Positions 2,358 to 55,664 of a stretch of DNA of 64,000 bases are shown here, piece by piece. Origin of the DNA: Fulvia fulva (taxonomy: Eukaryota > Ascomycota > Dothideomycetes > Mycosphaerellales > Mycosphaerellaceae); the NCBI RefSeq assembly GCF_020509005.1, contig NC_063019.1, forward strand, positions 1,922,001-1,986,000, in the 5' to 3' direction. The stretch's first letter is position 1. Each line of letters begins with the position of its first letter. Made by a program: the position numbers and the translations under genes. Under the pieces are notes generated by a model. The model was not told where the DNA came from. It ran no database searches and was given only the letters and a program-made list of their open reading frames with translations.

Positions 2358-2369
2358 CCTCGATACGCT

Positions 2370-16485: not shown

Positions 16486-19400
16486 CTACCTTGTCTGCAA
16501 CCCTAGAGTTGTCCCCCTCTTCCTGCTCTCCTCCTCCTTCTTTCTCTCCTCAATCCATCTCTCTGTTTCCCTAGTAAGAGAGAACTGCTCCAAAAATCCT
16601 TGGTGGATGATCCACCTTGTAATTCTCTGGAGGTCTCCCTTATTGCTGATCATGGCTTGGAAGTTTCTGTTCCTTGCCCTTGCCCTCCATTCACCTCTCC
16701 CTGTACTCCATTCTTTGCAAACCAGAAGTCTATGTTCGACATTCTGGGACAGGTAGCCGCATGGGCAACTCTTGTCTTCGATACCTGGGACTTTTCTCTG
16801 ATGCAGGTATGCCCTGACTCCGATGTGTTCAGAGCGGATTTGTATTGCTATGCTTGCTTCTGACCTGGTTAGGTCTGAGTACAGTAGGTAGTTGTGGCTA
16901 CCAAACTGTTGGAGTGCCTTTGGGGTTCCTGGCCTCTGTGGGGTTCTTGTCCATTCAGTCTTCCAGAGGAGTCCTGCCATCCTTTCAGCTAGAGACTGTT
17001 GCCTCTTCCCTTGGCTGGCTGCTGATCCTCTCCCTTGAGCCCTTCTGTCCTGTTCCTGCTGGGCTAGGTGCAGCTGTTCTGTTAGCTCTTTGAACTTCTG
17101 CAGGTCCTGCTGCTTCTGTGGGGCTGGATTGGGTCTTGCTTGTCTGTGCCTTCTTGTGCACTGGCTCCTGATTTTGTTGACTGCCTTCTGGATTACTAGC
17201 TGGGCTGGGTATGCAGACGTCTTTCCTGCATACTGGTATCTCAACCCTTGAAGGTAGAGCTTGGCTGGTGGGGAGCCAGACTCCATTTCGACCACCCTTG
17301 TTGGAGTTGACTTGTATGCTCCAAGCACCTTTTTCAGACAGGAGGCTTGGGCTCTGCTGATGGGATCTGCAATTCTCTTTGGGATCTTGTCTTGGGCTGA
17401 CCAGATCTGGGCTCCATATAGCATGGCTGGCTTCACAATGGCCTTGTACATAACCTTTGCTTTCGCAAATGTGGCTCCCCATGTGGAGGCTGTAAGCCTG
17501 TCAATTGATTGCCTGTTGTTGTCTGCTCTTGCCTGTGCTTTCTTGACCTGTGGTCCCCAGCTAAGCTTTGGATCCATCCATATTCCTAGCACCCTTAATT
17601 CACTAGAGGGTTCTGTTGTGTGTCCCTGAATAGTGATTGGGGCTTGCATATTGTGTCTGTTTCTGGCTCTACTGAAGTGGATGAGTTGATACTTCTCTGG
17701 GGCAAATCTGGCTCCATGTTTCCTGGCCCATTCCTCACATTCCTTGTGTTTCTTCTGCAAGATTCTGCAGTTCTCTTCTGTGCTGTCTGACCAGGCTAGG
17801 ATGTTTGTGTCATCCACAAACCCTGAGGCTGATGTGTTTCTGGAGTTTAGCTTTGCTGGCAGGTCTGCCATAAAGAGGAGAAACAGGATTGGAGACATTG
17901 TTGATCCCTGTGGGATTCCTGTCTCTGTAGGCATGCTGTCAGATTTGTATCTGCCCAGTCTTAGTCTTGTGGTTCTGCCTTTGAGGAACGACTGGATGAA
18001 CTGGACTGTCCAGTTAGGGATAGCCTTCTGTTTTAGGATGTGGATCAGCCTCTGGTGTGAGACATTGTCAAAGGCTCCTGATATGTCCAGTGAGAGGAGT
18101 GTGGCTGCTTTGTTGTTCCCAAAGTGCCACAGGGTCTTGATCTGCTCTGTGATAAGTTCCACAGCTGTTAGTGTTGATCTTTGTTTCCTGCCTCCCATCT
18201 GTTCTTCAGGAAGGATTCCATGTTCTTCAGCTAGGTTTGTCAGCCTTTCTGCTATGATCTTTTCCAGGAGTTTGCCTAGTGTGTTGAGCAAGGCAATAGG
18301 TCTGTATGCCTTTAGCTTTGTGTAGTCCTCTTTCTGTGGTTTTCTCAAGACCACAGTCAGTGACTCCTTGAAGTGTTTAGGGCAGTGTCCTTGGGCCATG
18401 CACTGTGAAAAGATGTTTGACAGTGCAGGGGAGATCTGGTCCTTGCATGTCTTAATGAACAAGTTTGGAATCCCATCTGGTCCTGGGGCCTTGTTTCCTG
18501 AGAGTCTCTTAATGATGCTCTTGATCTCTCCCTCTCCCACTGTGCAGGATTGCTCTAGTGGTGTTGGATACACACTGCCCTCCAGATCCTGCAGGTCAGC
18601 TTCTACCTGTGTGCCAAAGAAATGTTTCCCCAATGCCTGTGCCTTTCCTGGGAGAGTGTGTTGGATTACTCCTTCCTGGTCTTCAATGTTTGGAAACTGG
18701 GGCAGCATGTTTCTGTCCTGTGTGGGTTGTCTTGCCCACTTTGCTAGTTTCCACATCTTCTCAGGATTCTGGGTAATGGATCCAACTGTTGACCTCCACT
18801 CCAGCATCTTGTCCCTCTTGATCTGGGCCTTCTTGTCTCTGGTTGCCTGGTTGTATCTGTCCCATGCTTCCTGGGAGTGGCTCTGGGTAAGGGCTCTCCT
18901 GGCCTGCCTGGCTGCCTTGACCTTCTCTGAGCATTCCTTTGTCCAGAATGGCTTCTGGTACAGTGACTGTTTCTTTTCTCTGGTGTGGGCTGCCGCAGTT
19001 TCCTGCATTGTTCTAACCAGTTCTGCCACTGCTTGGTCTATGTCTAAGGCTGTTTCCAGTCTCCTGGTCTCTAGTCCAGCTAGCTTCTGTTCCAGGTCTT
19101 GTCTGATCTGTTCCCAGTTGGCTGCCTTCCAGGCCAGCTGAGGTTCTAGGTCTCCTTCCTGCTGTGTCTGTGTTTCAAACTCCACCTGAATTGGGAGGTG
19201 ATCTGATGAGGACTCCAAGTCCTGGTTAACCCAGCATCTGGTGACCTTCTGCTGCAGGTCATGTGATGCAAAGCACAGGTCAATGGTGCTTGAGCTTGCT
19301 CTCTGTGACCAGGTAGTTAGGCCCTTTGGGGTAACTAGGTGCATGTTGTTGCTTCGGGTAGTGGAGAGGAGTCTGTTAGCTAGGAAGTGATGGGCAGGTG

Positions 19401-19872
19401 CAAAGTCTGATCCCCATGTAGGATGGTGCAAGTTGAAGTCTCCCAGCACGATGTGTTGGGAGTCACTCTGCAGGATGTCTGGCAGCTGTTGTAGTGTGCC
19501 CAGCTGGGTGCTGCTTCTGGAGCTGGGGGGTGGGTTGTATACACTGTGGATGTGGATGCTGCCTTGGTTGGTGTTGAGTCTGACTGAGGTGATGTCTCCC
19601 CCTTCCTGTTGGATTTGTTCCCAGCTGTCTGTTGCCATCTCTTTGCTGATGTACATGCATGTTCTAGGGGTGCCTTGTTTGGCTAGGAGTGTGTGATACC
19701 TTGGGTCGTTAGCAGTAGATGGTCTGTTAGATTTGCTGTTGATCCAAGGTTCCTAGACTGCAATAACTAGGTGTTTCTTTGGGTCCAGTGCTTGGAGAAA
19801 GCTTCTCTGGACCTTGTGCTGGCTTTTGTTGACGTTGTACTGGATAGTGGTAAGATTAGGTGTCTCAATCAT
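16486..19872 (-). pseudogene. LINE2 ORF2: endonuclease/reverse transcriptase with a single early stop
   Basis: ORF2 starts at 19,870-19,872, its ATG overlapping the ORF1 stop (ATGA). Codon 40 is TAG (19,753-19,755) where composite A has Gln in QEPW. After it, 1,056 codons are open from an internal ATG at 19,654-19,656. Domains: exonuclease/endonuclease/phosphatase-type endonuclease (GDFNLHHPTWG, SSDH), then RT (GPDGIPN, YRPIALLN, LDISGAFDN, GIPQGSTMSPILF, catalytic FVDD), then a C-terminal CPCGYLSQNVEH-type Cys/His motif. No RNase H domain is seen. CAG to TAG fits one RIP hit. The protein would cut the target and reverse-transcribe the element RNA, but this copy lacks the endonuclease start unless the stop is bypassed. 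Confidence 0.85.
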
Positions 19873-21128
19873 GACTCATCCATGCTGGTCTCCTGCTGGT
19901 CTTCTCGTGCTTCCTGCTGCTGGCTGCTATTTGGGATTGTGGTAAGGTTGAGCCTGCTTTGTGACGGGTCTCTTCCTGCAACCACAATTGATTTTGGTCT
20001 ACCCATAGCAGGGTGGCCTTGGGCCTGTGTGGTCTCTTCTGTTCTGCCTCTTTTCAGAGGGTTGTAGACAGTCCTTAGGGGTTCTTGGGTGATTGTCCCT
20101 GTCTGGAATCTGATAGGGGTGTTGATCCTGGCTTCTGTTGCCCTCCTCTTTGCCTCAATCCTAGCTGTGCAGTCTTGGGACCAGGAAGGGTGTTTCTTTC
20201 CACAGCATGCACATCTGGCTTCACTCTTTGGGGCTGTGCAATTCTGTACTTTGTGGCTACCAGCACAGTGGGAACAAGTGTCCTTTTGGCTTGGGCATCT
20301 AGTAGAGATATGACCATACTGTTGGCACTTGAAGCATTGCAGTAGTCTGTGGGTGCTTCTATGGATTTCTGTGTCCATTCTTTCACATTCCCAGAAGATG
20401 CCCTTGTCAAGCACGGTGTTTGCCTGTTCTGCAGTGCCTATCCAGAGCACTAGAGAAGACTCTCTCTTTGTGTCCTTTGTCTTTCTGTTGACCCATGCTG
20501 CTTTTGTGATCTGTAGCCCTGGGCATACAGCCTGGTTCTGGTCCTGCAGCCTCTTAAGGTCTCCTTCAATGTCAAACTTTGTGGTCATTCCATGGGCAAT
20601 AACCATATTTTGTTGGTGTGAGACCTTAGCCGTCTTGCCTAGTTTGACTGTCCACTCCTTCTGTGTCTCTAGCCTCTTCCTGTCTTGCTCCTGTGCTGTG
20701 AACAGCTTAAGGACACCTCCCTTCTCTTTCCTGGCTCCAATGATGCCTTGTATCCCAATCTTCTGTATGATCTCCTTGCCTGACAGGCCCTCAATCTCTT
20801 TCTGCTCTTGCTGGTCGGAAATGTAGACCTTGATAGCTGTTTTCTGGGGGGGAGGGTTTTGGGATGCAACTGCTGCCCAGGTTGGTTGGCTTAGTTTCTG
20901 GCCTTCCTGTGTCCTCTTCTTTGCTGCTGCTGCTACTGTCCTGTTAATGATCTGTCCTGTTTGGCTCCTTAGTGCCTTTAGCCCTCCAAGGAGCTCCAAA
21001 ATCATCCCCTTAAGTGCTCTTTCTGGGTGCTCGCCATCTCCTGCCATTGCCATTGTTTCTGCCTTCCTGCAGACCTCCTTCCACTCGTTACTCTCCTGCT
21101 CCTGGTCGTTTCCTGCGATCGCTATCAT
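19869..21128 (-). CDS. LINE2 ORF1: gag-like RNA-binding protein with three zinc knuckles
   Basis: An intact 419-aa ORF with an ATG at 21,126-21,128. The N-terminal third is helical and charged. The middle has an RRM-like region of the L1/Tad gag type (about residues 97-245). The C-terminal part carries three CCHC-like knuckles at residues 265-278 (CFKCQQYGHISTRC), 285-297 and 306-320. Such proteins coat LINE RNA and are needed for retrotransposition. Its TGA overlaps the ORF2 ATG by ATGA, suggesting coupled termination-reinitiation. Codon use is normal and unmutated. Confidence 0.85.
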   Translation of the reverse strand: MIAIAGNDQEQESNEWKEVCRKAETMAMAGDGEHPERALKGMILELLGGLKALRSQTGQIINRTVAAAAKKRTQEGQKLSQPTWAAVASQNPPPQKTAIKVYISDQQEQKEIEGLSGKEIIQKIGIQGIIGARKEKGGVLKLFTAQEQDRKRLETQKEWTVKLGKTAKVSHQQNMVIAHGMTTKFDIEGDLKRLQDQNQAVCPGLQITKAAWVNRKTKDTKRESSLVLWIGTAEQANTVLDKGIFWECERMDTEIHRSTHRLLQCFKCQQYGHISTRCPSQKDTCSHCAGSHKVQNCTAPKSEARCACCGKKHPSWSQDCTARIEAKRRATEARINTPIRFQTGTITQEPLRTVYNPLKRGRTEETTQAQGHPAMGRPKSIVVAGRDPSQSRLNLTTIPNSSQQQEAREDQQETSMDES

Positions 21129-28835: not shown

Positions 28836-30213
28836 TAATTAACTCGAATATCTTTTTACGGCCGGGATACCTAGCCGCGGGTATATTGTAGAAACGTTTC
28901 GTAATTAGAGTACGAAGTTCTACTACGCTAGTAACTTCTAGGACAAATAAGTTATATCCTCCGTAGGTATTCTTTATATAGATTATACTATCTTCTACTT
29001 TAGACGTACGATCGTCGATCTTATGTTTACGTAATAGGGGTACTTACTAGTTCTAGGATAGCTATTATATAGTAACCTAAACGGTCTCTTCGTTATATAG
29101 AGCCTTGACTTATATAAGTAAATCCTACTATACTACCTACTACGCTACCTCCCCCTCCCGTAGCTCGCTTAAATTAAGCTTAATATCGAGGCGAGCGGGC
29201 GGTAGGATAACCTAGCTCTAATACTATAGACGTAGATTGCTTAGATCCGACGGTAGATCTTACGATCGTCTAGTAAGACTATTAGGCTTTATGCCCTATA
29301 TACCTAGACGATAGGTGATTTTGAATACGAACTGTACTAGGAACTATACCTAGCGTACCTACCGTCTATTAAGTTGTTTCGTACTTATAAAGTATTCTAG
29401 GTTCTTATAATCGGAGTAGATAATGACGGGATTGTTATCTATATCCTTTATATTCTCGAAATCGGTATCTATATTATCGTCTAAGTTAACGGTAAGCTTA
29501 GGTCTCTATTCTTCGAAGGCGAGGACGATAGCTAATAGTTCCTTGTCGTAAGTCTCGTAGTTATACTCCTATAGTAACATCTTCTTAGATATATATACTA
29601 CCGGTCTCTAGACGTCTCCGTATTTCTATAAAATTACTACCGTAGTAACGAAATCTAAGGCATCTGTTTCGACTATAGTTTCTAACCCTAGTAGAAAGTA
29701 TACGAGTACCGTGTCCGTTAAGAATATATCTTTTAATCCTTAGAAGGCTACTTCGTATTCTATTATCTAAACGAATAGTATCGGCTTACTATTCCTACTA
29801 GTCTTTATTAAATTCGTAAAGGGTATATAGATTTTAGAGAAGTTCTATATAAACCTTCGATAGAAGTTTCCGAACCTAAGGAATGCTTATATATCCTTTA
29901 GGCATATTAGAGTAAGCTAGTTCTTAACTACGTCGATCTTTTCTAGGTCTATACGGATACCGTCGACTCCTATAATAATACTAAGGTACTTCGTCTCTGT
30001 TTAGTAGAACTCGTATTTATCGATATCTAATTATAGGCCGGCTTTACGTATACGTTATAGTACTTTACGTACGTGTTATATATATTCCTCGAATGTGTCG
30101 CTAAAGATTAGGATATTATCTAGGTATACTAAATAGAAGTCATCGAGATACTCCCTAAGCGTATCGTTAATATATAATTAGAATGTTCCTAGAGCATTAT
30201 ATAGGCCGAAAGG
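28836..30213 (-). pseudogene. G4 pol relic, 3' part (RT palm to integrase zinc region)
   Basis: Minus-strand gypsy pol. The integrase zinc-binding region begins at about 28,840-28,920 and is cut by G1. RNase H lies at about 29,250-29,800. RT runs from about 29,850 to 30,213, including the catalytic loop region near 30,110-30,140. The frame breaks at 30,198-30,213 inside the MPFGLYN motif, where composite element A inserted. Many TAG stops. Confidence 0.7.
30198..30213. repeat. TSD of composite element A, left copy (16 bp)
   Basis: tatataggccgaaagg at 30,198-30,213 recurs at 35,227-35,242. Joining the outer flanks restores the G4 MPFGLYN coding sequence. The left end of the repeat is ambiguous by a few bases because the element tail is TCTA-rich. 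Confidence 0.88.
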
Positions 30214-31291
30214 TCGACGACGAGAATCACCTGTACGTGGTGTCGGCTACGAACCTCTCGTCTAGCTACGAGAGAGCCAAGTATTCTCACGCTGGAGCGT
30301 CGTGGGCGCGACGGGCGCGTAGCGTAGGCGAAGCCGCGGCGAACAGAGGACTACCAGCAAAACGGGTATGAAAACCATCCGACGAGCGTGTACTCGTGTC
30401 GGGAGCGAGTCCCTCTTCTTTCTACGTGTAAGAAGGGCGCGGAACCGTGGCCTATACGCTCGACAGGACACCTCTGGTATGAGTGCAGAATTTTCACCTC
30501 CGGAGACCGCAAACCGAGCGGGCTAAGCGACGAACATTGGACGAGCGGACTACAGAACAACAACTGAGCGGACTATGCAACGGCGTCGAGCGGACTACGA
30601 AACAATCTGGTGTTTGCCAGCGGGCAATGCGGTGGGTAGGTGGACACGCGACGAAGCCTGTAAGGGCCTGTTGAACACCCGGTATGGGAACGAGGGTTTT
30701 GCCTGAGGCACTGCCTGTCCCGCTACACAACGCACCTAGTCTGACATAGTAGATTGCGACGAGGAAAAGACGATAGCCTAAGCAAGGAAAAGACGGCTGT
30801 TAGGACGGGGAAAAGACGTACAATGCAAGTGGATTAGTTCTGTGATCGGGGAGGATCGAGGGCAGGGTGATAAGGAACTTCATATTGGTTAGTAGGTGGA
30901 AACGCAAGGAGTACGCTGCCCGGCGTGGTGTGTGCCCCGAGCAAACCTGCGAGGCATGGACGGCCGCTTTCTAGAGATAGGCTGCGGTAACGCGAAGGGC
31001 GTCAAAACCTGGGGCGTGGTGTACACTGGCAGCGACGGCTGACACTGTCTGTACAGCCCGAGAGGACGGATGCGCATGTCGGTCAATAGAGAGCACTAAA
31101 GGGCTTAGGCCTATGGAGGTGGATATTGGCTTAAGGAGCAAACAGGGAGGGAGGGCGTAGAGGGAAGCTTTTGCTCCGGGCTAACCTCTCGAAACGAGGC
31201 TACACGGTGGTGCTAGATGAGTGGGAAAGCGCGGTTAAGACTTGTCACCTTATCTCGTAGCTAGCTTGCTAAATACGATTCCTTCCTTGCC
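30214..31291 (+). other. 5' module of composite elements (WEIRD-like, non-LINE)
   Basis: About 1,078 bp shared by copies A and B and absent from LINE1, LINE2, LINE4 and LINE5. It is GC-rich and has no convincing ATG-initiated protein. It holds two families of spaced short direct repeats: GAGCGG(A/G)CTA at 30,516, 30,543, 30,566 and 30,588, and GGAAAAGACG at 30,763, 30,786 and 30,809, both at about 22-27 bp spacing. The 3' end reads CCTTCCTTGCCAA. It may carry promoter or RNA functions; that is inference. Confidence 0.75.
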
Positions 31292-31682
31292 AAAAAAGGA
31301 GAGCAGGTGCGCATGCTGCGGCAGAAGGCACCCAGCGTATTCAAGCCAATGCCCGGCTAGAATAGCAGCACAAGAACGAGCGAGACAAGCAAGGATCTCT
31401 ACACCAGCTAGGTACCCCCAACGACAACAGGAGGGACCTACCGTGTACAAGGGCTTCGAGCCGAGCAAAAGGAAGAGGGCAGAAGAGACGAACAAGGGAA
31501 CCCAACCGCAAACGCATCCACCTCCCGGTCGGCCTCGACACCTTAACCGGGCAGCCAACGAACTAGGCCAAATGCGAATCTTTGGGGCGCCCCAGCGGCC
31601 CCAGGGCCAGCCGGACAGCGAGATACAGGCTCAGGAGACACAGCAGGTCAGCACGGAAATGGACCTCACGGATAACGAATGA
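31290..31682 (+). pseudogene. Composite A: 3' remnant of LINE ORF1
   Basis: The frame is open from 31,242 but the LINE-homologous part begins at the CCA codon at 31,290. From there PKKESRCACCG aligns codon by codon with PKSEARCACCG of LINE2 ORF1. Only the third zinc knuckle and the basic C-terminal tail remain, about 130 residues out of about 420. There is no in-frame ATG near the start (TAA at 31,236-31,238, then a TTG-led frame), so an ORF1 protein is unlikely. Its TGA overlaps the ORF2 ATG (31,679-31,682). Confidence 0.75.
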
Positions 31683-34600
31683 TACTATACGACGACATCA
31701 CTATCGTACAGTACAACGTAAACAAAAGTAGGGACAAGGTCCAGCGCCACTTTCTACAAGAGCTAGACCCGCTACGGCACCACGTTATTGCGGTACAGGA
31801 ACCATGGATCAACCCCTACGTAGGACTCCCAGCCACTTGTAATGACCGGAGATACCACACCGTAATCGCGGGCCAACGAGGCGTCAACCCGAGGACATGT
31901 ATATACGTAAGCAAGACTATAGACCTTGAGTCGTGGAAGGTTATACTACCGCAGCAGGGCAACCTAGGAGACATAACATCAATCCAGATCGACACGACAC
32001 AAGGCCCTATCCAGATCCATAACGTTTACAACCCGCCACCGCGGGGTCGGACGAGTAGGGAACTAGGAACCCTCGCCCACCTAGAGCGGACCCTAAGCCA
32101 AGACACGAAGCAAGTACTCCTCGGCGACTTCAACCTCCACCACCCACAGTGGGGACTCGAATTCACTCCCCCGCACGCATTTCTAGGGGGGAAGCTACTG
32201 GACATAACCGCACGCTACGGAATGGCCTTAGTAACACCAAAGGGAACAGAGACGTGGAAGGCCCGTACTAGTGCAAGCACGATCGACCTATGCTTTCTAT
32301 CACGAGAACTTGAAGAGAGACTAGTCCAATGCCGACCGAACTACGCGCTAGAAGCCTCCTCAGACCATATCCCTATCCAAACGACGCTAGGGGTGAAGGC
32401 GATAGAGGAGCCAGCAAACGAACCACGCCGTAACTGGAAGAAGGCACGCTGGGACGACATAAGAGGCTTCCTAATAGCGAACCTACCACAGCATAGAGAA
32501 CTCGAGACGACAGCTCAGCTAGATCAAGCAGCGGAACAGATTACCTCGGTCATATGGCAAGCAGCGGAACAATACACGCCGTTACTCCGGCCCTCAACGC
32601 AGCAGAAGGCCTTCTGGACCCCTGAATGCTCTACGAAGGTAAGGGAGGCTAGAAGGGCAAGGCGACAGTGGACGAAGGAGCACACCCAAGAGACGTGGGA
32701 GCAATACTGCCACGCGACACAAGAGAAGAAGGCACAGATAAGACGCGATAAGCTGCAGGACTGGAGAGCGACGATCGGGCTCGTTACAGAAAACCCGGAA
32801 CAGATGTGGAGACTTGCTAAATGGGCACGACTACCTGAAGAGCAACAAGCCCCTCACTTCCCCCCAATCGTAGACCGCGAAGGGATTGCCCAGGCTACGC
32901 CCCGGGGCAAGGCAAAAGCGTTAGCCGACCATTTCTTTTCGACGCAAGTAGAGGCAGACCTTACGGACATCGACCCGAGCACATACCCGGAACCCCTGGA
33001 CATGGATTGGGCGGTTAGCCCTAACACAGTAACAGGAGTCATAAGTAAGCTAAAGGGACGAAAAGCCCCAGGCCCAGACAGGATACCAAACGTACTGCTA
33101 AAAGAGTGTAGAGAAGAGATCGCGCCGAGCCTTGCAAACCTATTTACCGCGTGCCTACGGCTAGGGTATCACCCGAAGCCGTACAGAGAGTCTATGACAG
33201 TAGTGCTACGCAAGCCACAGAAGGAAGACTATACTCAGCCCAAGTCGTACAGACCAATAGCACTTCTAAATACGATAGGGAAGGTCCTAGAAAAGATAGT
33301 AGCCCAGAGACTTACGCAGCTTGCCGAGGACAACCACGTACTCCCAGCAACACAGATGGGGGGAAGAAGCCAGCGATCGACACTAACAGCAATGGAGCTA
33401 ATTACGGAGCAAATCCAGACCCTCTGGCACTACGGCAGGAACCGAGCGGCGTCCTTACTATCCCTCGACATCGCAGGGGCCTTCGACAACGTCTCACACC
33501 AAAGGCTAATACATATCCTACAGCAGAAAGGCATCCCCCAGTGGGCAACGTCGTTCGTCTTCTCCTTTCTCCAGGAACGGACGACATACCTAGTCCTAGG
33601 AAGGTACACGTCCGACCCGGTGAAGGCAGAGACTGGAATACCTCAGGGATCTACTCTCTCCCCTATCCTGTTTCTAATATTTATGTCGGATCTAATCCCC
33701 CTACTCACCTCTCCGCAAACCTCAGCATCGGGGTTCGTAGACGATACAAACATCCTAGCCTGGTCAGACTCGACAGAAGAGAACTGTCGCCTCCTTGAAG
33801 ATAGGCACAAGAAATGCGAGGAGTGGGCAAAGAAGCATGGTGCCCGGTTCGCCCCTGAAAAGTACCAACTTATACACTTCAGTAAAGCGAGAACACACCA
33901 TAATATGAAGGCGGCGGTAAGAATCCAAGGCTACGAGACCAAGCCATCAGCGGAGCTACGAGTACTAGGGATCTGGCTCGACCCGAAGCTAAGCTGGAAT
34001 GTACAGATTAAGAAAGCCCAGAGTCGAGCGCAAGTCAATGAAGCCTCGATAAAGAGGCTTACGGCATCTACATGGGGAGCAACATTCGACAAGGCAAGAG
34101 TAATGTATAAGGCGATCGTCAGACCAGCTATGTTGTACGGGGCACAGATTTGGGGAACAGGAGGCGCAGGCAAGCCGATCCCGAAACGGATAGAGCAACC
34201 CCTAAACAGGACACAGGCAGGCAACCTACGTAGGGTACTAGGCGCATACAAGACAACGTCAACAAGCACGGTAGAAATGGAGACAGGAATACCACCAATC
34301 GGCCAGTACATCCGGGGAATGAGAATTCAATACGCGGCAAAGACGACAGGTTACCTAGCACAAACCACGATCCAGGAGGCAAAGAATAAGATAGAAAGCC
34401 GCTACCGGAGAGGGGCAGGATATAGGACAAGCCAAAAAGAGGATGACCTTACGACCTTTACGGCCGTACAGACAAGCACCGAATGGCTAGCACGAAAGGA
34501 GGAGGAGCGTAGGACTCGCCAGGCCGGCGGGAGCAAGGCTAAGACCCAAAACCTAGCGGAACAGATAGCGAGCTGCCTATGGGAGCAGGACTGGAAAAGG

Positions 34601-35032
34601 AAGCCCCCTAAGACAACAGGCCCGATAGCGCTCCGAGCCTTCCAGAGACACAATTACCAGCTATATAGGGACCTGACAAGGGCCGAAGCAAGCATAGCGA
34701 TCCAAATCAGGTCCGAACACATTGGATTAAGGGCCTACCTGTTCAGAAGACGCGCACTAGACATCTATAGCCCAGCCTGCCAGTGTGGCTACCCATCGCA
34801 AAACCCAGAACATATGCTACTACGATGCCCGCAGTGGGCGAGAGGCAGGGGAAATTGGAGGCACCAAGCGGGAAGGAGAGACTACAAGTCAATTATTAGG
34901 GACAAAGGCAACATTCGCCGAATCTCTCGGTGGATACTACAGCAGGGATACCTCCAGCAGTTTAGCCTCGCGAGCGAGACGGAGGAGTGGATAGACAAGA
35001 GGCGGAAGCGAGGGGGGTTGCAGATAGGGTAG
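31679..35032 (+). CDS. LINE ORF2: endonuclease-reverse transcriptase, intact (1,117 aa)
   Basis: Complete ORF with an ATG overlapping the preceding stop (ATGA). The N-terminal exonuclease/endonuclease/phosphatase fold (about residues 1-235) has N13 in QYNVN, E41 in QEPW, GDFN with D150, and SSDH. The RT domain (about 440-740) has GPDRIPN, YRPIALLN, SLDIAGAFDN, GIPQGSTLSPILF and the catalytic FVDD at 686-689. A C-terminal motif is C1034-x-C1036-x8-H1045-x4-C1050. No RNase H domain is seen, unlike several Tad-clade elements. It should nick target DNA and prime reverse transcription there. All expected residues are present, so it may be active and could mobilise ORF1-less relatives in trans. Confidence 0.93.
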   Translation: MILYDDITIVQYNVNKSRDKVQRHFLQELDPLRHHVIAVQEPWINPYVGLPATCNDRRYHTVIAGQRGVNPRTCIYVSKTIDLESWKVILPQQGNLGDITSIQIDTTQGPIQIHNVYNPPPRGRTSRELGTLAHLERTLSQDTKQVLLGDFNLHHPQWGLEFTPPHAFLGGKLLDITARYGMALVTPKGTETWKARTSASTIDLCFLSRELEERLVQCRPNYALEASSDHIPIQTTLGVKAIEEPANEPRRNWKKARWDDIRGFLIANLPQHRELETTAQLDQAAEQITSVIWQAAEQYTPLLRPSTQQKAFWTPECSTKVREARRARRQWTKEHTQETWEQYCHATQEKKAQIRRDKLQDWRATIGLVTENPEQMWRLAKWARLPEEQQAPHFPPIVDREGIAQATPRGKAKALADHFFSTQVEADLTDIDPSTYPEPLDMDWAVSPNTVTGVISKLKGRKAPGPDRIPNVLLKECREEIAPSLANLFTACLRLGYHPKPYRESMTVVLRKPQKEDYTQPKSYRPIALLNTIGKVLEKIVAQRLTQLAEDNHVLPATQMGGRSQRSTLTAMELITEQIQTLWHYGRNRAASLLSLDIAGAFDNVSHQRLIHILQQKGIPQWATSFVFSFLQERTTYLVLGRYTSDPVKAETGIPQGSTLSPILFLIFMSDLIPLLTSPQTSASGFVDDTNILAWSDSTEENCRLLEDRHKKCEEWAKKHGARFAPEKYQLIHFSKARTHHNMKAAVRIQGYETKPSAELRVLGIWLDPKLSWNVQIKKAQSRAQVNEASIKRLTASTWGATFDKARVMYKAIVRPAMLYGAQIWGTGGAGKPIPKRIEQPLNRTQAGNLRRVLGAYKTTSTSTVEMETGIPPIGQYIRGMRIQYAAKTTGYLAQTTIQEAKNKIESRYRRGAGYRTSQKEDDLTTFTAVQTSTEWLARKEEERRTRQAGGSKAKTQNLAEQIASCLWEQDWKRKPPKTTGPIALRAFQRHNYQLYRDLTRAEASIAIQIRSEHIGLRAYLFRRRALDIYSPACQCGYPSQNPEHMLLRCPQWARGRGNWRHQAGRRDYKSIIRDKGNIRRISRWILQQGYLQQFSLASETEEWIDKRRKRGGLQIG

Positions 35033-35226
35033 TCATCAGGGCAGGCCCATGACACTAGCGTACCCCTAACAAGGGAAATTTAAGACGACAACGAGGAGGA
35101 AAAGACAGGCGGGAAGGAGGAGGGGTTTTCACCAACACGGTTTCCCCTCTATATATACAAAAACAAGATAGCATAGCTGCATAGGCCAAAGGGCACTACA
35201 ACAGCTTAATGAAATATCTATCTATC
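35033..35226 (+). other. LINE 3' UTR and (ATCT)n tail of composite A
   Basis: 194 bp containing the GGGGTTTTCACC block shared by all LINE copies here. It ends in a tetranucleotide tail (ATCT)n directly followed by the TSD, with no poly(A). Confidence 0.75.
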
Positions 35227-35242
35227 TATATAGGCCGAAAGG
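35227..35242. repeat. TSD of composite element A, right copy (16 bp)
   Basis: Exact copy of 30,198-30,213. G4 RT sequence (MPFGLYN, minus strand) continues to the right. Confidence 0.88.
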
Positions 35243-35955
35243 CATTACTATATACTCGAATTGACTATAGCGAGTACTAAACGTAGTTTTCTATTCGTAG
35301 TCCTCCGTAACGTAAATACGGTTAAAGGTAGAGATAATATCGAGTTTAGTAAAGTACTTCTTCCTATTTAGGCGGTTTAGCGTTTCTTAGAATAGCGGTA
35401 TTAGGTATCTACTTTTGACCGTAAGGGCGTTAAGAGCTCTATAGTCGATATAGACCCGTAAACCGCCGCCTAGTTTACGTATAATTAGTACTAGTATAGA
35501 AGCCGGGCTCGTACTTTGTTATATCGCTCTAGATTCTAGCTAATTATCGACCTACTTCTTAATTACCTTATTCTCGTAAGACGACATTACGTATAGCCGC
35601 TTAAAAGGAGGTGACTTAGTTTCGTCTTTAAGGTATATTTTATAGTCTTTACTAGGGCGGTGAGGTGGGATTTTCGATATATCCTAACGGTTAAAATAGT
35701 CCTCGAAATCGTATAGTTCCTAGGGCAAGTGGACCTTAGTATCTTAGTCCTTATCTTTGCCTTTTAGAAATCTATCGAAGTCGCTATTTACCTATTATTA
35801 TATATACTGTCAAGGGGTTTACTAACTACACCTTCCGAAGGTTTATAGCGTAGAGCCTAGTAGGATCGAAGTCTTGCCTAGTCGCTACTATTACGTAGGC
35901 TCGTAATAGGTTAGCGTGTTGCTTCTAACTAGGTAGTATAATCTACATTATATAG
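35243..35955 (-). pseudogene. G4 pol relic, middle part (RT fingers and upstream linker)
   Basis: Minus-strand gypsy RT N-terminal half. The VYIDYRALN block is at about 35,435-35,465 and the KKYFTKLDIIS-like block at about 35,325-35,360. The linker upstream extends to 35,939. The right edge is the TSD of copy B (35,940-35,955). RIP-saturated. Confidence 0.7.
35940..35955. repeat. TSD of composite element B, left copy (16 bp)
   Basis: aatctacattatatag. The right copy at 39,405-39,420 differs only by T for C at the seventh base, in a CpA context, i.e. a RIP change after insertion. Confidence 0.82.
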
Positions 35956-38900
35956 ATAGATAGATATTTCATTAAGCTATTATAGTTCTCTTCGGCCTAT
36001 ATAGCTATACTATCTTGTTTTCGTATATATAGAGGGGAAACCGTGTTAGTAAAAACCCCTCCTCCTTCCTACCTGTCTTTTCCCCCTAGTCGTCGTCTTA
36101 GATTTCCCTTATTAGGGGTACGCTAGTGTTATAGGCCTGCCCTAATAACTACTCTATCTATAACCCCCTAAGCTTCCGCCTCTTATCTATCTACTCCTCC
36201 GTCTCGCTAGCGAGGCTAAACTACTAGAGGTATCCCTACTATAGTATCTACCGAGAGATTCGGCGAATGTTACCTTTATCCCTAATAATTGACTTATAGT
36301 CTCTCCTTCCCGCTTAGTGCCTCTAATTTCCCCTACCTCTCGCCTACTACGGGCATCGTAGTAGTATATACTCTAGGTTTTACGATAGGTAGCTATACTA
36401 GTAGGCTAGGCTATAGATGTCTAGTACGCGTCTCCTAAATAGGTAGGCCCTTAATCTAATATATTCGGACCTAATTTGGATCGCTATGCTTGCTTCGGCC
36501 CTTATTAGGTCCCTATATAGCTAGTAATTGTGTCTCTAGAAGGCTCGGAGTACTATCGGGCCTATTGTCTTAGGGGGCTTCCTTTTCTAGTCCTATTCCT
36601 ATAGGTAGCTCGCTATCTATTCCGCTAGGCTTTAGGTCTTAGCCTTACTCCCGCCGGCCTAGCGAGTCCTACGCTCCTCCTCTTTTCGTACTAGCTATTC
36701 GGTGCTTGTCTATACGGCCGTAAAGGTAGTAAGGTCATCCTCTTTTTAGCTTGTCCTATGTCCGGCCCCTCTCCGGTAGCGGCTTTCTATCTTATTCTTT
36801 ACCTCCTAGATCGTAGTTTGTACTAGGTAATCTGTCGTCTTTACCGCGTATTAAATTCTTATTCCCCGGATATATTAGCCGATTAGTAGTGTTCCTGTCT
36901 CTATTTCTACCGTGCTTATTAACGTTATCTTATATACGCCTAGTATCCTACGTAGGTTACCTACCTATATCCTATTTAGGGGTCACTCTATCCGTTTCGG
37001 GATCGGTTTACCTACGCCTCCTGTTCCCTAAATCTATGCCCCGTATAATATAGCTAGTCTAACAATCGCCTTATATACTACTCTTGCCTTATCGAATGTT
37101 ACTCTCTATATAGACGCCGTAAGCCTCTTTATTAAGGCTTCGTTAACTTACGCTCGACTCTAGGCTTTCTTAATCTATACATTCTAGCTTAGCTTCGGGT
37201 CGAGCTAGATCCCTAGTACTCGTAGCTCCGCTAATAGCTTAGTCTCGTAGCCTTAGATTCTTACCGCCGCCTTTATATTATAGTATATTCTCGCTTTACT
37301 AAAGTATATAAGTTAGTACTTTTTAGGGGCGAACCGGGCACTATACTTCTTTGCCTACTCCTCGTATTTCTTGTGCCTATCTTTAAGGAGGCGACAGTTC
37401 TCTTCTATCGAGTCTAACTAGGCTAGAATGTTTATATCGTCTACGAATCCCGATGCTAAGGTTTGCGGAGAGGTGAGTAGGGAGACTAGATTAGACATTA
37501 ATATTAGAAATAGGATTAGGGAGAGATTAGATCCCTAAGGTATTCTAGCCTCTACCTTTACCGGGTCGGACGTATACCTTTCTAGGACTAGGTATGTCGT
37601 CCGTTCCTAGAGAAAGGAGTAGACGAACTTCGTTACCTACTAGGGGATGCCTTTCTACTATAGGATATATATTAGCCTTTAGTATAAGACGTTATCGAAG
37701 GCTCCTACGATGTCGAGGGATAGTAAGGACGCTACTCGGTTCCTACCGTAGTGCTAGAGGGTCTGAATTTGCTCCGTAACTAGCTCTATTACTATTAGTG
37801 TCGATCGCTAGCTTCTTCCCCCTATCTATATTACTAGGAGTACGTAGTTATCCTCGGCTAGCTACGTAAGTCTCTAGGCTACTATCTTTTCTAGAACCTT
37901 CCCTATTATATTTAGAAGTACGATTAGTCTATACGATTTAGGCAAAGTATAGTCCTCCTTCTATAGCTTACGTAGTACTACTGTTATAGACTCTCTATAC
38001 GGCTTCGGGTAATACCCTAGCCGTAGGTACGCGGTAAATAGGTTAGTAAGGCTCGGCGCGATCTCTTCTCTATACTCTTTTAGTAGTATATTTAGTATCC
38101 TATCTAGGCCTAGGGCTTTTCGTCCTTTTAGCTTGCTTATAACTCCTATTACTATATTAGAGCTAACCGCCTAATCTATATCTAGGGGTTCCGGGTATAT
38201 ACTCGGGTCGATATCCGTAAGGTCTACCTCTACTTACGTCGAAAAGAAATGGTCGGCTAATACTTTTGCCTTGCCCCGGGGCGTAGCCTAGGCAATCCCT
38301 TCGCGGTCTACGATTAGAGGGAAGTGAGGGGTTTGTTACTCTTTAGGTAGTCGTGCCTATTTAGCTAGTCTCTATATCTATTCCGGGTTTTCTATAACGA
38401 GCCCGATTGTTACTTTCTATTCCTATAGCTTATCGCGTCTTATCTATACCTTCTTCTCTTACGTCGCGCGATAGTATTGCTCCTACGTCTCTTAGTAAGG
38501 AAGGAATCGTATTTAGTAAGCTAGCTACGAGATAAGGTAATAAGTCTTAACCGCGCTTTCCTACTTATCTAGTACTACCGTATAGCTTCGTTTCGAGAGG
38601 TTAGCCTAGAGCAAAAGCTTCCCTCTACGCCCTCCCTCCCTATTTACTCCTTAAGCCAATATCTACCTCTATAGGCCTAAGCCCTTTAGTGCTCGGGTAG
38701 CGTACTCCTTACGTTTCTACCTACTAACTAATATAAAGTTCCTTATTACCCTACCCTCGATCCTCTCCGATTATAGAACTAAACTACTCGTATTATACGT
38801 CTTTTCCCCGTCCTAATAGCCGTCTTTTCCTTACTTAGGCTATCGTCTTTTCCTCGTCGCAATCTACTATATTAGACTAGGTACGTTATGTAGCGGAATA

Positions 38901-39404
38901 GGTAGTACCTTAGGCAAACCCCTCGTTCCTATACCGGGTACTTAATAGGCCCTTATAGGCTTCGTCGCGTATCTACCTACCCTCCGTATTGCCCGCTAGC
39001 AAACACTAGATTGTTTCGTAGTCCGCTCGACGCCGTCGTATAGTCCGCTTAGTTATTGTTCTATAGTCCGCTCGTCTAATATTCATCGCTCGGCCCGCTC
39101 GGTTTACGGTCTCTAGAGGTGAAAATTTTGTACTTATACTAGAGGTGTCCTATCGAGTGTATAGGCCACGGTTCCGCGCTCTTCTTATACGTAGAAAGAA
39201 GAGGGACTCGCTCCCGACACGAGTATACGCTCGTCGGATAGTATTTATACCCGTTTTACTAGTAGTCCTCTATTCGCCGCGGCTTCGCCTACGTTACGTA
39301 CCCGTCGCGCCTACGACGCTCTAGCGTAAAAATACTTAGCTCTCTCGTAGTAAGACGAGAGGTTCGTAGCCGACACTACGTATAGGTAATTCTCGTCGTC
39401 GACT
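35956..39404 (-). mobile_element. Composite element B: same 5' module fused to the ORF2 midpoint, RIP-mutated
   Basis: A 3.4-kb minus-strand copy. From its 5' end (39,404 leftwards) it matches module A, lacks about 170 bp of it (equivalent to about 30,918-31,090 of A), then runs to the module end (about 38,493). There it joins directly to sequence equivalent to 32,688 in ORF2, skipping 31,292-32,687. The junction falls at CCAA, present at both partners. RT, the C-terminal region, the 3' UTR and a GATA-type tail follow (35,956-35,970). RIP has introduced many TAG codons. It lies tail to tail with copy A, about 730 bp apart. Confidence 0.85.
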
Positions 39405-39420
39405 AATCTATATTATATAG
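39405..39420. repeat. TSD of composite element B, right copy (16 bp)
   Basis: aatctatattatatag, matching 35,940-35,955 at 15 of 16 positions. G4 sequence resumes at 39,421 in frame with 35,939. Confidence 0.82.
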
Positions 39421-47294: not shown

Positions 47295-48186
47295 GATAGA
47301 TAGATAGATTATTCATTCGCCTGTTTTAGTGCCCTATGGCCTATGCAGGTCTCTCGCTATTTAGGTCTATTTGTGTAGGTAGGAAACCCGATTAACGGAT
47401 GAAAACCTCCTCGTCTTTGCCCTCCTCGTTCTTTCCTGTCTTGTCCTTTCGTTCTCCTTCCTTTAGGGTACGCTAGTGTCATGGTTGTTACCCTATGACT
47501 ACCTTGCCCGTAACCCTGGTGATGTCCTCCTCTCGATTCCCTTTCTCCCTTCTGTTTCCCCGGCTCTTCTCTCTCTCTCTCCCTCCTCTCTATCCACCTT
47601 TCCGTTTCTACTGCTAGGGAGAATTGCTCTAGGTAGTCCTCGTTAAGGATCTATCTTGTCACTCTCCTTATATCTTGTCTGTTCTGGATGATGGCCTGGT
47701 ATTGCCTGTCTCTTGCCTTCGCCCTCCACTGGCTTCTCCCTTTTACCCACTTAGTACAGTTCAGCACCATGTGCTCCGGGTTTTGGGATAGGTAGCCACA
47801 GGGGCAACGTTTGGAATCGTATCCTAGGACTCTTCTTTGGTGCAAGTATGCTCTCAGCCCAATGTGCTCAGAGCGAATCTGGATAGCTATGCTTGCTTCC
47901 GCCCTCTTCAGGTCTTTGTAGATAAGGTAGTTATACCTCCCGAAGGTCCTGGCCGCTGGTGGGGCTCCTGGCCTCACCGGTTTTTGGTTCCAACGCGTTT
48001 CCTATAGGTGACCTGCGATCCTTTCTGCTTGGCTTTGCTTCTTGTTCCCTTTGTCCCCTGTGTTAGCTTGCTCCCTCAGAGCTTCTCTCTGTTCAAGGGC
48101 TGCTAGGATTTCCTGTGATGTTTTTAGGTCTGCTTCCTTTTGTGGGATCATGTGTGGCCGGTTAGGTCTTCTCCTCCTCTCCCACT
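47295..48186 (-). mobile_element. LINE5: 5'-truncated LINE (892 bp) in the transposase gene
   Basis: Minus-strand LINE 3' end: the C-terminal part of ORF2, 3' UTR and (GATA)n tail. It is a distinct subfamily from LINE2 and composite A, although the Cys/His motif CPCGYLSQNPEH and the ASIAIQIRSEHIGLRAYL block are conserved. The longest open stretch is 47,651-47,977. Two TAG codons (at expected Trp positions, near 48,000 and 47,650) break the frame; otherwise it is little mutated. Perfect 14-bp TSD; truncation at the 5' end is typical of LINE insertion. Confidence 0.88.
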
Positions 48187-50644: not shown

Positions 50645-52411
50645 TCAGTGATCGTCTGGCTCGCCTCGCTGCTCAGGATCCAGCTTGATGAGTGTGTCGA
50701 TCCTCATGATCGCCACGCATGCCTCCACTGCAGACTTCAGCTGCTTGACCTTACTCATGCTCGGTTCTAGGATACCAGCCTTAACGCAGTCTTGCACCTT
50801 GCCCTTCGATAGATCCAGACCGTAGTTCTTGTAGCCCTTCGCCTTTGCGAGTGCTTTTGCATCTGCGTCGAGGGCTTGTTGTGTCTTCGTCGCTTGAGGT
50901 GCGGGTGCGCCATTGGCTTGTGCTGGAGGGTGAGCGGACGCTGGCTCTGATGTGCGTTGTGACAACGCGTGGCGCGATCGAAGCTGTGCGACAAGTTCCG
51001 AGCTGTCTTTTGCAGCGTTGACGGCAAGTGTGGTAGGTACGACAAGTAGTGACTGCGCAAAAGCACCGATCGCCAGCTGCTCTCTCGAACCGACGCTGGT
51101 TGCCCACTCTTCGAGGTAGATGTGCAGTGCGGTTTCCACGGCGCCACCACCTGGAACAATGCGGCCAGACTCCAATGTTCGCTTCACAGCCGAAAGCGAA
51201 TCGTGGACTGATCGCTCCATCTCGTCCAGGGAGTACTCGTTTGGTCCACGCAGAATGATCGAAGCGGCAGTGTGGACTTTAGGGCCCTTGACCAGAATGC
51301 ACTCGTCGTCCGATATGCGCTCTTGCACCACTTCCTTCGCCTCACCCAGCGCCTTAGGGTCGAAGTAGTCGTCGCCAGTGTTGATGTCTGCCAAGGTGCT
51401 GATCATTGTTGCGCCAGTCGCTTTCTCTATCCGTCTCAGGTCCTCCTTCTTGCACCTCCGCACAGCCATGGCACCCTTCTCGATGAAATGCTTCAAGCAG
51501 AGGTCATCGATACCCTTGGTCGTGAAGATGACGTTCGCGCCGGCCTTCAGGATCATCTCTACCCGCTCGATCACCATGCTCGACTCCCGCTCTCTGATCT
51601 TCTCCAGCTGAGCAGGGTCGTCGATGACCACGTTCACGCCCATCTTCATGCGCTCCTTTTGCAGGTTCATGTCTAGGATGGCAATCTTGGCGTCTGTGAT
51701 GCGTGTCTTCATAGCTTGTGAAGCAACAGTGCAGTTCAGAGCATATCCCTTCACGAGCATCGATTCCGTTGCGCTTTTGCCGTGTGACTTGAGCACATTG
51801 ACTGCCTTCACCGGGTACTTGACCTCGCCTCTCGCGTTCGTAGTCTTGACGCTTGTGATGGCATCCACGACCATGTTGGCGAAGAAGTCGGAATCGGCGC
51901 CGATGATCTTGCTGCTCATGCTGGTCTTTGCAATGCTGATCAAGCTGTCTCTGCCCAGCGTCTCGACCTTGGTGCTTACGTTGTCGTTCATGTATCGTAC
52001 CGCCTCGCGAAGAGCTAATCGGTAGCCCGTGATGATTGTGGTTGGGTGTATCCGCATCTTCACCAGCTCGTTTGCTCTCCGTAGTAGCTCGGCTGCGATG
52101 AGCACGACACTAGTTGTTCCATCTCCGACTTCCTTATCTTGCTGCTGTGCCAAGTCGACCAAGATCTTGCCTGCTGGGTGCTCGACGTTGAGGAGCGAGA
52201 GAATGGTAGCGCCGTCGTTGGTGACTGTGACATCGCCAATGTCGTCCACCATCATCTTGTCCAAACCGCTCGGGCCGAACGACGACTTGACAATGTTGGC
52301 AATGGCTTGTGTGGCGAGGACATTTTGGTCACGGATGTCTGCTCCACTGATCTTTTGGCCTCCTAGGAACAGCGTGCCTTGGTTTCGCGGCTGCTCAAAG
52401 ATGCCTGCCAT
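50645..52411 (-). CDS. CCT1: T-complex protein 1 subunit alpha (CCT1)
   Basis: A 588-aa single-exon protein and group II chaperonin subunit of the cytosolic TRiC/CCT ring, which folds actin, tubulin and other proteins with ATP. Visible hallmarks: [12 protein letters not shown] and VTNDGATIL near the N-terminus, the nucleotide-binding GDGTTSVV (about residues 96-103), [28 protein letters not shown], and VPGGGAVE near the C-terminal equatorial domain. An Ala/Pro/Gln-rich stretch (about 482-525) before GYKNYGLDL is longer than in the yeast protein (559 aa), presumably a loop. The start ATG at 52,409-52,411 gives the expected MAGIFEQPR beginning. Codon use is normal and there is no RIP, although the gene lies only about 2 kb from the transposon block. 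Confidence 0.95.
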
Positions 52412-54218
52412 GGCTGGCTAGAGAGGAGATGGAGGTGCAGTCGTGGAGACGATGATGATTAATGTATTCCTAGACTGGCGGTTGTGCTTGGTGGGTATTC
52501 GTATCAGGCTGCGAGGAAGTTCGAGGCGTTCTATCTCGACGTCTCAAAAAGATTTCGTCCATGCGCGTTTCGAGCTCGCGCTTCCCTGGACTGCACAAGA
52601 CAACAAGGCGGGGGTGATGATCCATTGGAGCCGCGTCAATATTTGATTGAACGCGCAGAGATGACTTTCCCGCGACTTCACGTCTTTCTTCCTACATGTA
52701 TTCCTCGACCATCTGCATCTCGTACGTCGCTCGTATCTCTACCGTTATCAGACCGGGCGACAGGCATCCCTCTACTGTCTCACACACCTCACAGGCCGAC
52801 TCTCATAGCGATGTCTGAAAGACGCTGCCCTCTACAAGAACTCGTCGCTATCAAAGGATTGCCCACGCCGTTGGAGCGCTTCAGGTTCTGCCATGTTCAG
52901 TGCTATCGCTAGCGACATGGTCAAGTCTCTAGACTCGGGCGCCAGGAGTTCATCTCGATGTTCCTCTTCATGGCCTCCTTGGACTAACCATATGAGACCA
53001 CTGCTCAACAGCGATTGAACGCGAATGCTGGGTGCATGCTGCTCTACACAGATCTCGGAAGCGACGACTACGCCGAGAGATCCAGGCTCTCAGCGACGAA
53101 TCGTACCTCTGTGAGGCCTAAGTGTACAGAGGTCGGAACGGTGCCCATGGGTATCTTCCAAGCCAGTGCTGTATACTCACAAGCAGCAAGACCACTTTGT
53201 ATGTCAGTGGGACTGACAAAAAGCAAATTCCCAAATTCCCAGATCCGAGGTTGAGGCGTATGGTGCTGAATGGATAGATCTATGGTTGACTATGCATGAC
53301 AGGCTCGTGCGGATCATCAGCCGCGCCTGGACGCAGTGCACGGGCTCCAGTGCTGGACTTGGAATGACAGGTCTCGAAGGATGCTCGATCGTTCAACGAG
53401 TCGCCATGATCTGAGGGCACTGGATTCAGCATACTGTACCTGTGCTCTCGTTTTGTGTCTGAGCATAAGCCTTGTGGAGCCGGTGACACTGGGCTGTCAT
53501 CAACTCAGAGCTGGAACTACTGTCCTACGTTCGCTATGCCAATCGCCTACGACAGCTATCTTCCGTTCTCAGGCAGGGGGATAGGACCTGAGGACACTGA
53601 TGGCGCAGCTGGCGGTGTCACAGGCGTCAGCCGGCTGCTCGTACAAGCCTGGCCATACTTGCACGCGGCTTGTCTGTGGCCTTCGATCAATTCAGCACGT
53701 CACATCATCTGATGCCAGACTGCGTAACAAGTATGGTACCTACTACAGTATCTTATGTTCCTCTCGACAAGTTCCGTACACAGTCGTTAGACGGACCAGG
53801 ACGCCAAGCCACCGGACGGATCTTCTTCTACCAAGCCCATCCTTCGCTCTTTGTTATGCCGATCATGCAACCGCAAGCATTCCAGCGTCTTTGATACAGG
53901 TCCTCCCAAGCCTTTGTATACCCACCATTGGCCTTTGTCACATGGCCCGAAGGCCATTTAGCCTAACGATAATGGCAACAGCGCACTCGAGGACGCTATA
54001 ACTTGCACACCCACTTCGCACTCCACTTGGACTGCCTGTCGCAGCTCGTACTTCCTATCCATTTCCGTTCCACGCCAAGTAAGAAGACTTTGTCCAGTGA
54101 AAGTACGCTGTGCGTTCTGTCATAAGTCACCCATTAACCCTATGTCCTCTCAACTCCTCATCAGGAGCACCCACAGAAGATTCGTTTCCTCCAGCCCAAA
54201 GTTTCGACTCAATACACC
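52412..54218. other. 1.8-kb intergenic region without a recognised gene
   Basis: Lies between the divergently transcribed CCT1 and GH43 genes, so it should hold both promoters. Frames of 60-140 codons occur, but none shows a recognisable domain or coherent composition. Composition is normal, with no RIP. A pyrimidine-rich segment lies near 52,680-52,760, in the presumed upstream region of CCT1. Confidence 0.5.
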
Positions 54219-55349: not shown

Positions 55350-55664
55350 GGTGAGTGTGGGTTTTGGCTGCGAGCTGGTCTTGAGGGGAGGGATGTGCTG
55401 ATGGTTTGGATTGGGTAGGCGCGGGAAATATGTGATCACGACATTGTTTTATGCATAGTAGGATGGATGCAGAGCACTAATGTTGACATTCAGGAGAGAA
55501 GGATTCAATGGAATCATGGCGCGATGCTTCAATGGTTTGACGAATTGTCTAAGATAGTGAACGTAACAATTTCCGTCCCCTTGCGTAACGTGATCACGAG
55601 ATGAGACACCGCCTCTCTCCCCACGACGGCTTCAAGGTCATGCTGAGACGATCTGTCGTAAAAC

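Follow-up and report, generated by a model that had tools for sequence, protein, structure and literature searches.

How does one non-coding sequence come to stand in front of long interspersed nuclear elements (LINEs) that begin at different points? The question is raised by two composite retrotransposons in a 64,000-base stretch of the genome of Cladosporium fulvum (Fulvia fulva), the tomato leaf mould fungus (contig 8, positions 1,922,001 to 1,986,000; here called the window). Copy A (30212-35226, plus strand) and copy B (35956-39404, minus strand) each consist of a module of about 1.08 kb followed by part of a LINE, LINE1, and belong to a module-LINE system that, judged by analogy, works like MINE, the composite of WEIRD and MGL in Magnaporthe. 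The explanation to which we give somewhat better than even chances is that a ribozyme-ended module RNA is joined to LINE sequence by a template switch during target-primed reverse transcription (TPRT). The genome searched comprises 67,169,167 bases in 14 contigs; the assembly report describes a 67.17-Mb Race 5 assembly of 14 chromosomes, with the LINE Tad1 making up 16.3% of the genome and sequence affected by repeat-induced point mutation (RIP) 39.2% (PMC9453070).

A first-pass annotation had read A and B as two insertions of a common module, on opposite strands and each with its own 16-bp target site duplication (TSD), joined to the LINE at points about 1.4 kb apart, and this description holds. 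The TSDs of A are identical, and those of B differ by one transition. Copy A joins at the first base of our LINE1 reference; the join of copy B lies some 1.4 kb beyond that base, at LINE1 ∼1395 (exact base set by eye), a place also used by locus L093 (clean junction) and, when counted back over mutated letters, by L046. The features of the two copies are as follows.

30198..30213, plus strand: 5′ TSD of copy A, TATATAGGCCGAAAGG; its final GG could equally be the module's first two bases
30212..31289, plus strand: module of copy A, 1,078 nt, GGTCGACG...CCTTCCTTG, GC content 56%
30212..30288, plus strand: predicted hepatitis delta virus (HDV)-like ribozyme, a prediction only, with the cut expected just 5′ of 30212
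31290..35226, plus strand: LINE1 of copy A, 5′ truncated, with part of open reading frame 1 (ORF1), the whole of ORF2, and an (ATCT)n tail
31679..35032, plus strand: LINE1 ORF2, 1,117 aa from ATG, with endonuclease (Exo_endo_phos, Exo_endo_phos_2) and reverse transcriptase (RVT_1) domains
35227..35242, plus strand: 3′ TSD of copy A
35940..35955, minus strand: 3′ TSD of copy B
35956..38495, minus strand: LINE1 of copy B, 5′ truncated, joined at LINE1 ∼1395
38496..39404, minus strand: module of copy B, RIP mutated, with ∼168 bases missing inside (module 712-879); ends set by eye
39405..39420, minus strand: 5′ TSD of copy B

The module of copy A holds no sense-strand ORF of at least 90 aa, and one stop-to-stop frame of 101 aa lies antisense. 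In the aligned parts, 390 substitutions separate B from A, of which 339 are C to T or G to A and 279 stand in the CpA/TpG context typical of RIP. The suggestion that B could be a simple internal deletion of an A-type copy fails on these RIP-type differences; copy B arose from a join like that of A, has since been mutated, and is no deletion derivative of A.

Searching the source genome with the module, as the first-pass annotation had advised, returned 144 copies, which were taken throughout by an exact 33-base 5′ end. These 33 bases leave out an initial GG; the first 35 bases, GG included, occur exactly 142 times, and the two remaining 5′ ends read AG, a RIP-type change. All 21 complete copies (A and the loci closest to it, L009-L028) are flanked by TSDs of 11 to 17 bp, each different, and the GG lies outside the TSD in 19 of them, which points to GGTCGACG as the start of the module RNA. 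The module start was set at 30212 because of these two counts and its end at 31289 because the C's that follow TTG belong to the LINE, so the annotated length of about 1.08 kb stands, but the annotated ends (30,214-31,291) are replaced by 30212 (GG) and 31289 (...TTG). The 3′ end (…CCTTCCTTG) is fixed as well, falling at position 1078 in all 54 distinct clean junctions described below and in those junctions with another LINE, LINE4, that align cleanly (6 of 7). The word at this end occurs 195 times genome-wide. By eye, sixteen places on contig C1 carry it without the exact 5′ word, and the seven of them that were read were all full-length modules with mutations; no 5′-truncated module was seen heading an element. 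On the same contig, three module 3′ ends lie on one strand at a spacing of 4.67 kb (C1:8826063-8835433), possibly a tandem array of one chimera, of which the middle module alone (L158) was read.

What follows the module can be read in 143 of the 144 copies, the exception (L059/L113) being an interrupted module; of these copies, L114-L157 were picked solely by the exact 5′ end. No solo module gene is present among the 143, a donor in ribosomal DNA not having been searched for. In the chimeras, the module is complete at both ends, the LINE is 5′ truncated or joined near its 5′ end, both parts have the same orientation, and one TSD surrounds the whole. This anatomy is that of template switching in TPRT, as proposed for MINE (PMC2104539), or of a prior RNA ligation.

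The ribozymes of HDV form a nested double pseudoknot of P1, P2, P3, P1.1, and P4, with G1 at the cut and the active-site C in J4/2. The first 77 bases of the module, counted from the GG, can be folded in the same way, with P1 at 1-7/31-37 (including a G1-U37 pair), P2 at 11-16/72-77, P3 at 18-20/28-30, P1.1 (C25-G40 and G26-C39) between L3 and the post-P1 strand, P4 at 44-50/57-63, and CCAA in J4/2. A strict descriptor of this topology fits all 21 intact module starts (copy A and 20 loci, which are copies of one sequence) and, elsewhere in 434,570 positions on both strands, one RIP-mutated module and one unrelated place. It did not fire at copy B, and among 200,000 sequences obtained by dinucleotide shuffling of the module's first 110 bases it fits 13. 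The best of 4,227 Rfam families against 96 bases was HDV-F-prausnitzii (RF02682), aligned end to end from 30212. The invariant 5′ end of the module coincides with this predicted HDV-like ribozyme and is most likely made by its self-cutting, a reading that, if true, would explain the invariant end and the missing gene at once. In R2 elements of fruit flies, such a ribozyme stands at the precise 5′ end (PMC3774820); the one predicted here belongs to a non-coding module that lacks its own LINE 3′ end.

Other identities of the module RNA were examined and rejected. A structured or viroid-like RNA is disfavored by a fold energy no better than that of shuffled sequences (z +1.6, 30 shuffles), and an RNA polymerase III element or short interspersed nuclear element (SINE) by three internal TTTT runs and no match to A and B box patterns. 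A SINE with its own 3′ end does not fit the 21 complete copies, in which the end before the TSD is that of the LINE with (ATCT)n.

The module has been recruited in front of more than one LINE. The 143 junctions lead into LINE1 (57), LINE2 (51), LINE3 (16, of which L077 was assigned from a match of just 32 bases), a related LINE of less than 88% identity (8), the module itself (5), or sequence matching no reference (6). Seven of the eight related-LINE junctions match LINE4 at 97 to 100%, as do L054, L132, and bases 13-200 of L049 in the last group, where L129 is LINE1's 5′ region and L153 and L052 were read as LINE protein by eye only. The partners belong to at least four LINE families. The five module-to-module junctions are triples in which the module end is followed by a 5′-truncated module, from about position 168 in L029 and L141, 165 in L151, 297 in L067, and 371 in L040; in L029, a LINE1 part was read behind the second module. 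LINE4 itself lies in the window, and several module chimeras elsewhere in the genome use it.

16486..21128, minus strand: LINE4, with open ORF1 (19869-21128, zinc knuckle) and open ORF2 (16486-19656, endonuclease and reverse transcriptase); reference for the held-out junction test, no chimera as far as read

To place the junctions on the references, 20 of the 143 were omitted as having no close reference or clean anchor. Among the 123 alignable copies, 3 begin at the reference end and 19 differ from the reference letters at the join, 10 of the latter landing on a clean junction when counted back. The remaining 101 copies form the clean set, with 54 distinct junctions (21 in LINE1, 20 in LINE2, 11 in LINE3, and 2 in the module); counted back over mutated letters, the 123 copies occupy 65 distinct places. 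The first-pass annotation's view that the module is repeatedly placed 5′ of variably truncated LINEs is borne out by these numbers, and the alternative that all modules are joined at one fixed LINE point is contradicted by the 54 clean junctions in three LINE families and by more in a fourth. Reuse is seen at 17 of the 54, one of which is shared by 9 loci, and one and the same place in the stretch encoding LDIxGAFD of the reverse transcriptase serves as a junction in LINE1, LINE2, LINE3, and LINE4 (homology judged by eye).

The LINE side of the junctions obeys a sequence rule. In the 54 clean junctions, a pyrimidine (Y) stands at −1 in every case, a purine (R) at −2 in 51, and C at +1 in 51, while G is never found at +2. 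The pattern R-Y|C-H (H, not G) describes 49 of the 54, compared with a background of 3 to 5% of positions (p about 7e-58), a statistic in which 2 of the 54 junctions lie in module templates and homologous places across LINEs are not fully independent. LINE4 had been held out from rule finding, and 6 of its 7 junctions follow R-Y|C-H, the miss being TC|TC, used by three loci. Used R-Y|C-H sites also tend to carry GAC within the next 12 bases (25 of 47, versus 91 of 655 unused sites). Such a rule on the LINE side argues for a sequence-directed step in joining. RNA structure at the used sites gave no signal (lowest p 0.07 in five windows), and guide pairing of LINE flanks with the module or the ribozyme P1 strand gave no clear one, with the best 6-mers at p about 1e-4 in 168 tests; one of twelve offsets in the P1 test reached p 1e-5, but it overlaps R-Y|C-H itself. 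Trans-splicing was rejected on the LINE side of the join, which is Y|C and not AG|.

From the ends, partners, and junctions we infer a mechanism with the following steps. The module, 1,078 nt long and constant at both ends, would act as a non-coding RNA, TTG being its 3′ end. The HDV-like ribozyme would cut its 5′ end free from any transcript that reads into a copy; neither a promoter nor a gene of its own would then be required, and the chimeric copies could themselves be the sources. TPRT would start at the LINE 3′ end, and copying would stop at a preferred place of the LINE RNA, R-Y|C-H, which in many cases has GAC among the 12 bases that follow. By a template switch, and not by ligation of RNAs, copying would then resume on the 3′ end of the module RNA and run to the 5′ end made by the ribozyme, and the chimera would be sealed in with a TSD.

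Several points weigh against this mechanism. The RF02682 alignment scores 13.1 bits (E 1.7) against a gathering score of 44, and HDV-F-prausnitzii is not listed in an Rfam scan of 1.4 kb. Since the descriptor was written after the fold had been seen, and since the module sequences come from this genome alone and offer no covariation from relatives, the ribozyme is a prediction. A mutated or unassembled source is possible because only exact 33-base 5′ ends were surveyed, and the origin of the module's 3′ end lies outside the proposed steps. In addition, the rule is not what a plain template switch would lead one to expect. At 51 of the 70 junctions as first called (18.7 expected), the join shows a one- or two-C identity of the sort that a module RNA with a final C or CC would produce. 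Annealing by the end of the cDNA can account for this identity, and for C at +1/+2, but not for Y at −1 and R at −2. Finally, none of seven LINE 5′ ends without a module obeys R-Y|C-H (by eye), which suggests, as far as so small a set tells, that the rule is no general stop of the LINE reverse transcriptase. The seven loci (L014, L168-L172, and the LINE3 copy of the window, with about 5 different ends) comprise 5 of 8 directly read LINE1 5′ loci and, out of 18 further rows, the 2 in which a TSD was visible; three loci with the longest 5′ end, taken as the LINE's own, were excluded, as were rows that lay at edges, were nested, or were too mutated.

A rival explanation is joining at the RNA level. 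A sequence-preferring endoribonuclease would cut LINE RNA at R-Y|C-H, and a ligase, for example the fungal tRNA ligase, would attach the 3′ fragment to the module RNA at its 3′ end before ordinary TPRT of the chimeric RNA. The four-base rule, with its invariable Y at −1, looks like nuclease specificity, and the constant module end and the module-less ends that ignore the rule are also in its favor. However, LINE RNA cut in this way would be expected to yield some insertions that begin at the rule and have no module, of which the same small set of seven holds none, and the C or CC identity at the join is the expectation of an annealing step. We know of no nuclease with R-Y|C-H specificity, no search for one having been made. 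RNA-level joining, which work on U6/LINE-1 chimeras states as an alternative (PMC13174262), is doubtful in our judgment, and the R-Y|C-H rule is the best handle for deciding between it and a template switch.

Whichever way the join is made, the module RNA must come from somewhere, and its sequence variants bear on its source. Among 66 copies whose modules are at least 96.5% identical to that of A, the haplotype 569A alone is found in 14 copies at 14 different junctions, 537A+569A in 8 copies, 733G+895C in 9 copies at 7 junctions, and 109C+111A+314G in 6, besides combinations. The hot spot LINE1:2171 carries five haplotype strings, or four if 328A is a private RIP hit. By context, the distinguishing sites 569, 537, 449, 494, 314, 109, and 895 are of RIP type, and 111 and 733 are not. 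The presence of several lineages at the same hot spots indicates that joining recurs, and shared variants of RIP type suggest that the sources were chromosomal repeats; the module sources are probably chromosomal. An RNA replicon as the source is unlikely on the same ground. None of the 143 junctions reveals a solo gene, and several lineages run in parallel; taken together, these findings fit a supply of module RNA from the chimeric copies.

Under either mode of joining, the donor could instead have been one host gene for a non-coding RNA, a gene that has since mutated, is missing from the assembly, or does not occur in this isolate. Such a gene is what the authors of WEIRD suggest, with no solo copy reported in Magnaporthe (PMC2104539), and the fixed module ends and the 0 of 143 solo copies here agree with it. 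Branching lineages with RIP-type changes across different junctions would, however, require several sources, or one source changed repeatedly by RIP, and we regard a single gene as unlikely. A further alternative is that shared junctions reflect one chimera retrotransposed as a unit after few joining events. The reuse of 17 clean junctions is in its favor, and the module-module-LINE triples imply either chimeric RNAs as templates or double switches; yet there are 54 distinct clean junctions, different module haplotypes are found at one and the same junction, and a given haplotype is found at many, so that shared junctions are not merely copies of one chimera. Some copying as a unit is possible, but as the main route it is contradicted and very improbable.

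The module-LINE composites could also be internal deletions of a full-length LINE whose 5′ untranslated region (UTR) or ORF1 region is the module, as the first-pass annotation had allowed. LINE1's own 5′ region gave 313 candidates, of which 40 were scored; 39 of the 40 have no exact-5′ module just upstream, which argues that the module is not LINE1's 5′ UTR, and all 8 regions read directly show other flanks and no module. The 13 scored regions on C1 all lie 5,069 to 5,072 bp from an exact LINE1 3′ end. For LINE1, this origin is contradicted and scarcely credible, for although some copies join near the LINE 5′ end (L106, L068, and L129), the module-free 5′ regions and a module end common to at least four LINE families speak against it. 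The eight directly read 5′ ends (L165-L172) are ragged over tens of bases, the longest (3 of 8) beginning at about (A)TTGATCTCGATCGATAG. Exact LINE1 3′ ends (31-mer) number 239, and module chimeras hold very roughly one in four of them, the two counts differing in RIP exposure and stringency.

Returning to template switching with a ribozyme-freed RNA, we tentatively consider, at less than even chances, a broader reading in which the module is a self-sustaining LINE parasite. Without a 3′ end of its own for reverse transcription, it would spread only as acceptor in a sequence-directed joining, recruit several LINEs via R-Y|C-H, and be released by its ribozyme from each chimera as a possible new source. 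If true, the module would stand for a distinct type of non-autonomous retroelement, and MINE of Magnaporthe could be a second case.

Elsewhere in the window, a further LINE copy served as a comparison case for the module-less ends:

47295..48186, minus strand: LINE3 copy (98.5%), 5′ truncated and module-less, TSD TATATATAAGCTTA set by eye; truncation not at R-Y|C-H

The left part (1-5835) holds two LINE2 pieces in opposite orientation (1-1000, minus strand; 1000-5835, plus strand), 88 to 90% identical to the LINE2 reference. The right part (50645-63789) holds ordinary genes, encoding a chaperonin (Cpn60), a GH43 protein, a NUBPL/ParA-type P-loop NTPase, and a transporter of the MFS type.

C. 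fulvum is a Dothideomycete and Magnaporthe a Sordariomycete, in keeping with the first-pass annotation's expectation of an analogous system in a different fungal class. Open-access texts, including C. fulvum genome papers known to us in part, yielded no description of a module-LINE system in this species. Among systems outside fungi, the U6/LINE-1 chimeras of mammals share a full-length non-coding RNA at the 5′ side, sense orientation, a 5′-truncated LINE, and TSDs, and for them too template switching versus RNA ligation is debated (PMC13174262); U6 is, however, a host small nuclear RNA, whereas no gene was found here among the readable exact-5′ copies. The R2 and R2/R1 hybrid SIDEs (short internally deleted elements) of Drosophila combine a 5′ ribozyme piece with a LINE 3′ end, either from the same element or from a different one, are moved by LINE machinery, and have TSDs in the hybrids; template jumps to U12 and tRNA are also reported (PMC3414825). 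Their authors predicted an origin by recombination or DNA repair (PMC3414825), while in C. fulvum a single module meets several LINEs, each at many points, and the junctions follow a sequence rule.

The closest likeness is to MINE (PMC2104539). There as here, a full-length non-coding module of ∼1.1 kb stands 5′ of a variably 5′-truncated LINE with TSDs and without a solo module, a triple was attributed to a double switch, some junctions were used twice, and pyrimidines stand at the switch site. The variable truncation behind a constant module recurs in our 54 clean junctions, and the flanking repeats of 10 to 20 bp are matched by TSDs of 11 to 17 bp in all 21 complete copies. In Table 3 of that report, 12 of 13 different switch sites end in R-Y-Y (our count, by eye; PMC2104539). 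These sites resemble R-Y|C-H when the cut point is moved leftward by a single base, a shift of our own choosing, and the GCT sites among them are at odds with a WEIRD RNA that ends in C (PMC2104539). The published switch consensus, GCC*A/U, is related to that of C. fulvum but differs from it: the rule here is R-Y|C-H, and in all 54 junctions a C or T, never a G, precedes the C run. WEIRD (1,113 nt) could be compared at two primer sites (PMC3978060), for which the best module matches were 12/20 and 11/20 bases at other positions. Because these two sites gave no match and the consensus differs, we have not filed the C. fulvum element as MINE. It differs further in its predicted HDV-like ribozyme and several module lineages, and in scale: 143 junctions involving at least four LINE families were read here, whereas Magnaporthe has 33 chimeras, 31 of which are MINEs with one LINE (PMC2104539). 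MINE has so far been a matter of one fungus and no source gene, and its mechanism was deduced from those 33 chimeras. A comparable system in a fungus of another class, which offers more than four times as many readable junctions, at least four LINE partners, several module lineages, and a junction rule that also holds in a held-out LINE, suggests a recurring phenomenon that is biochemically testable.

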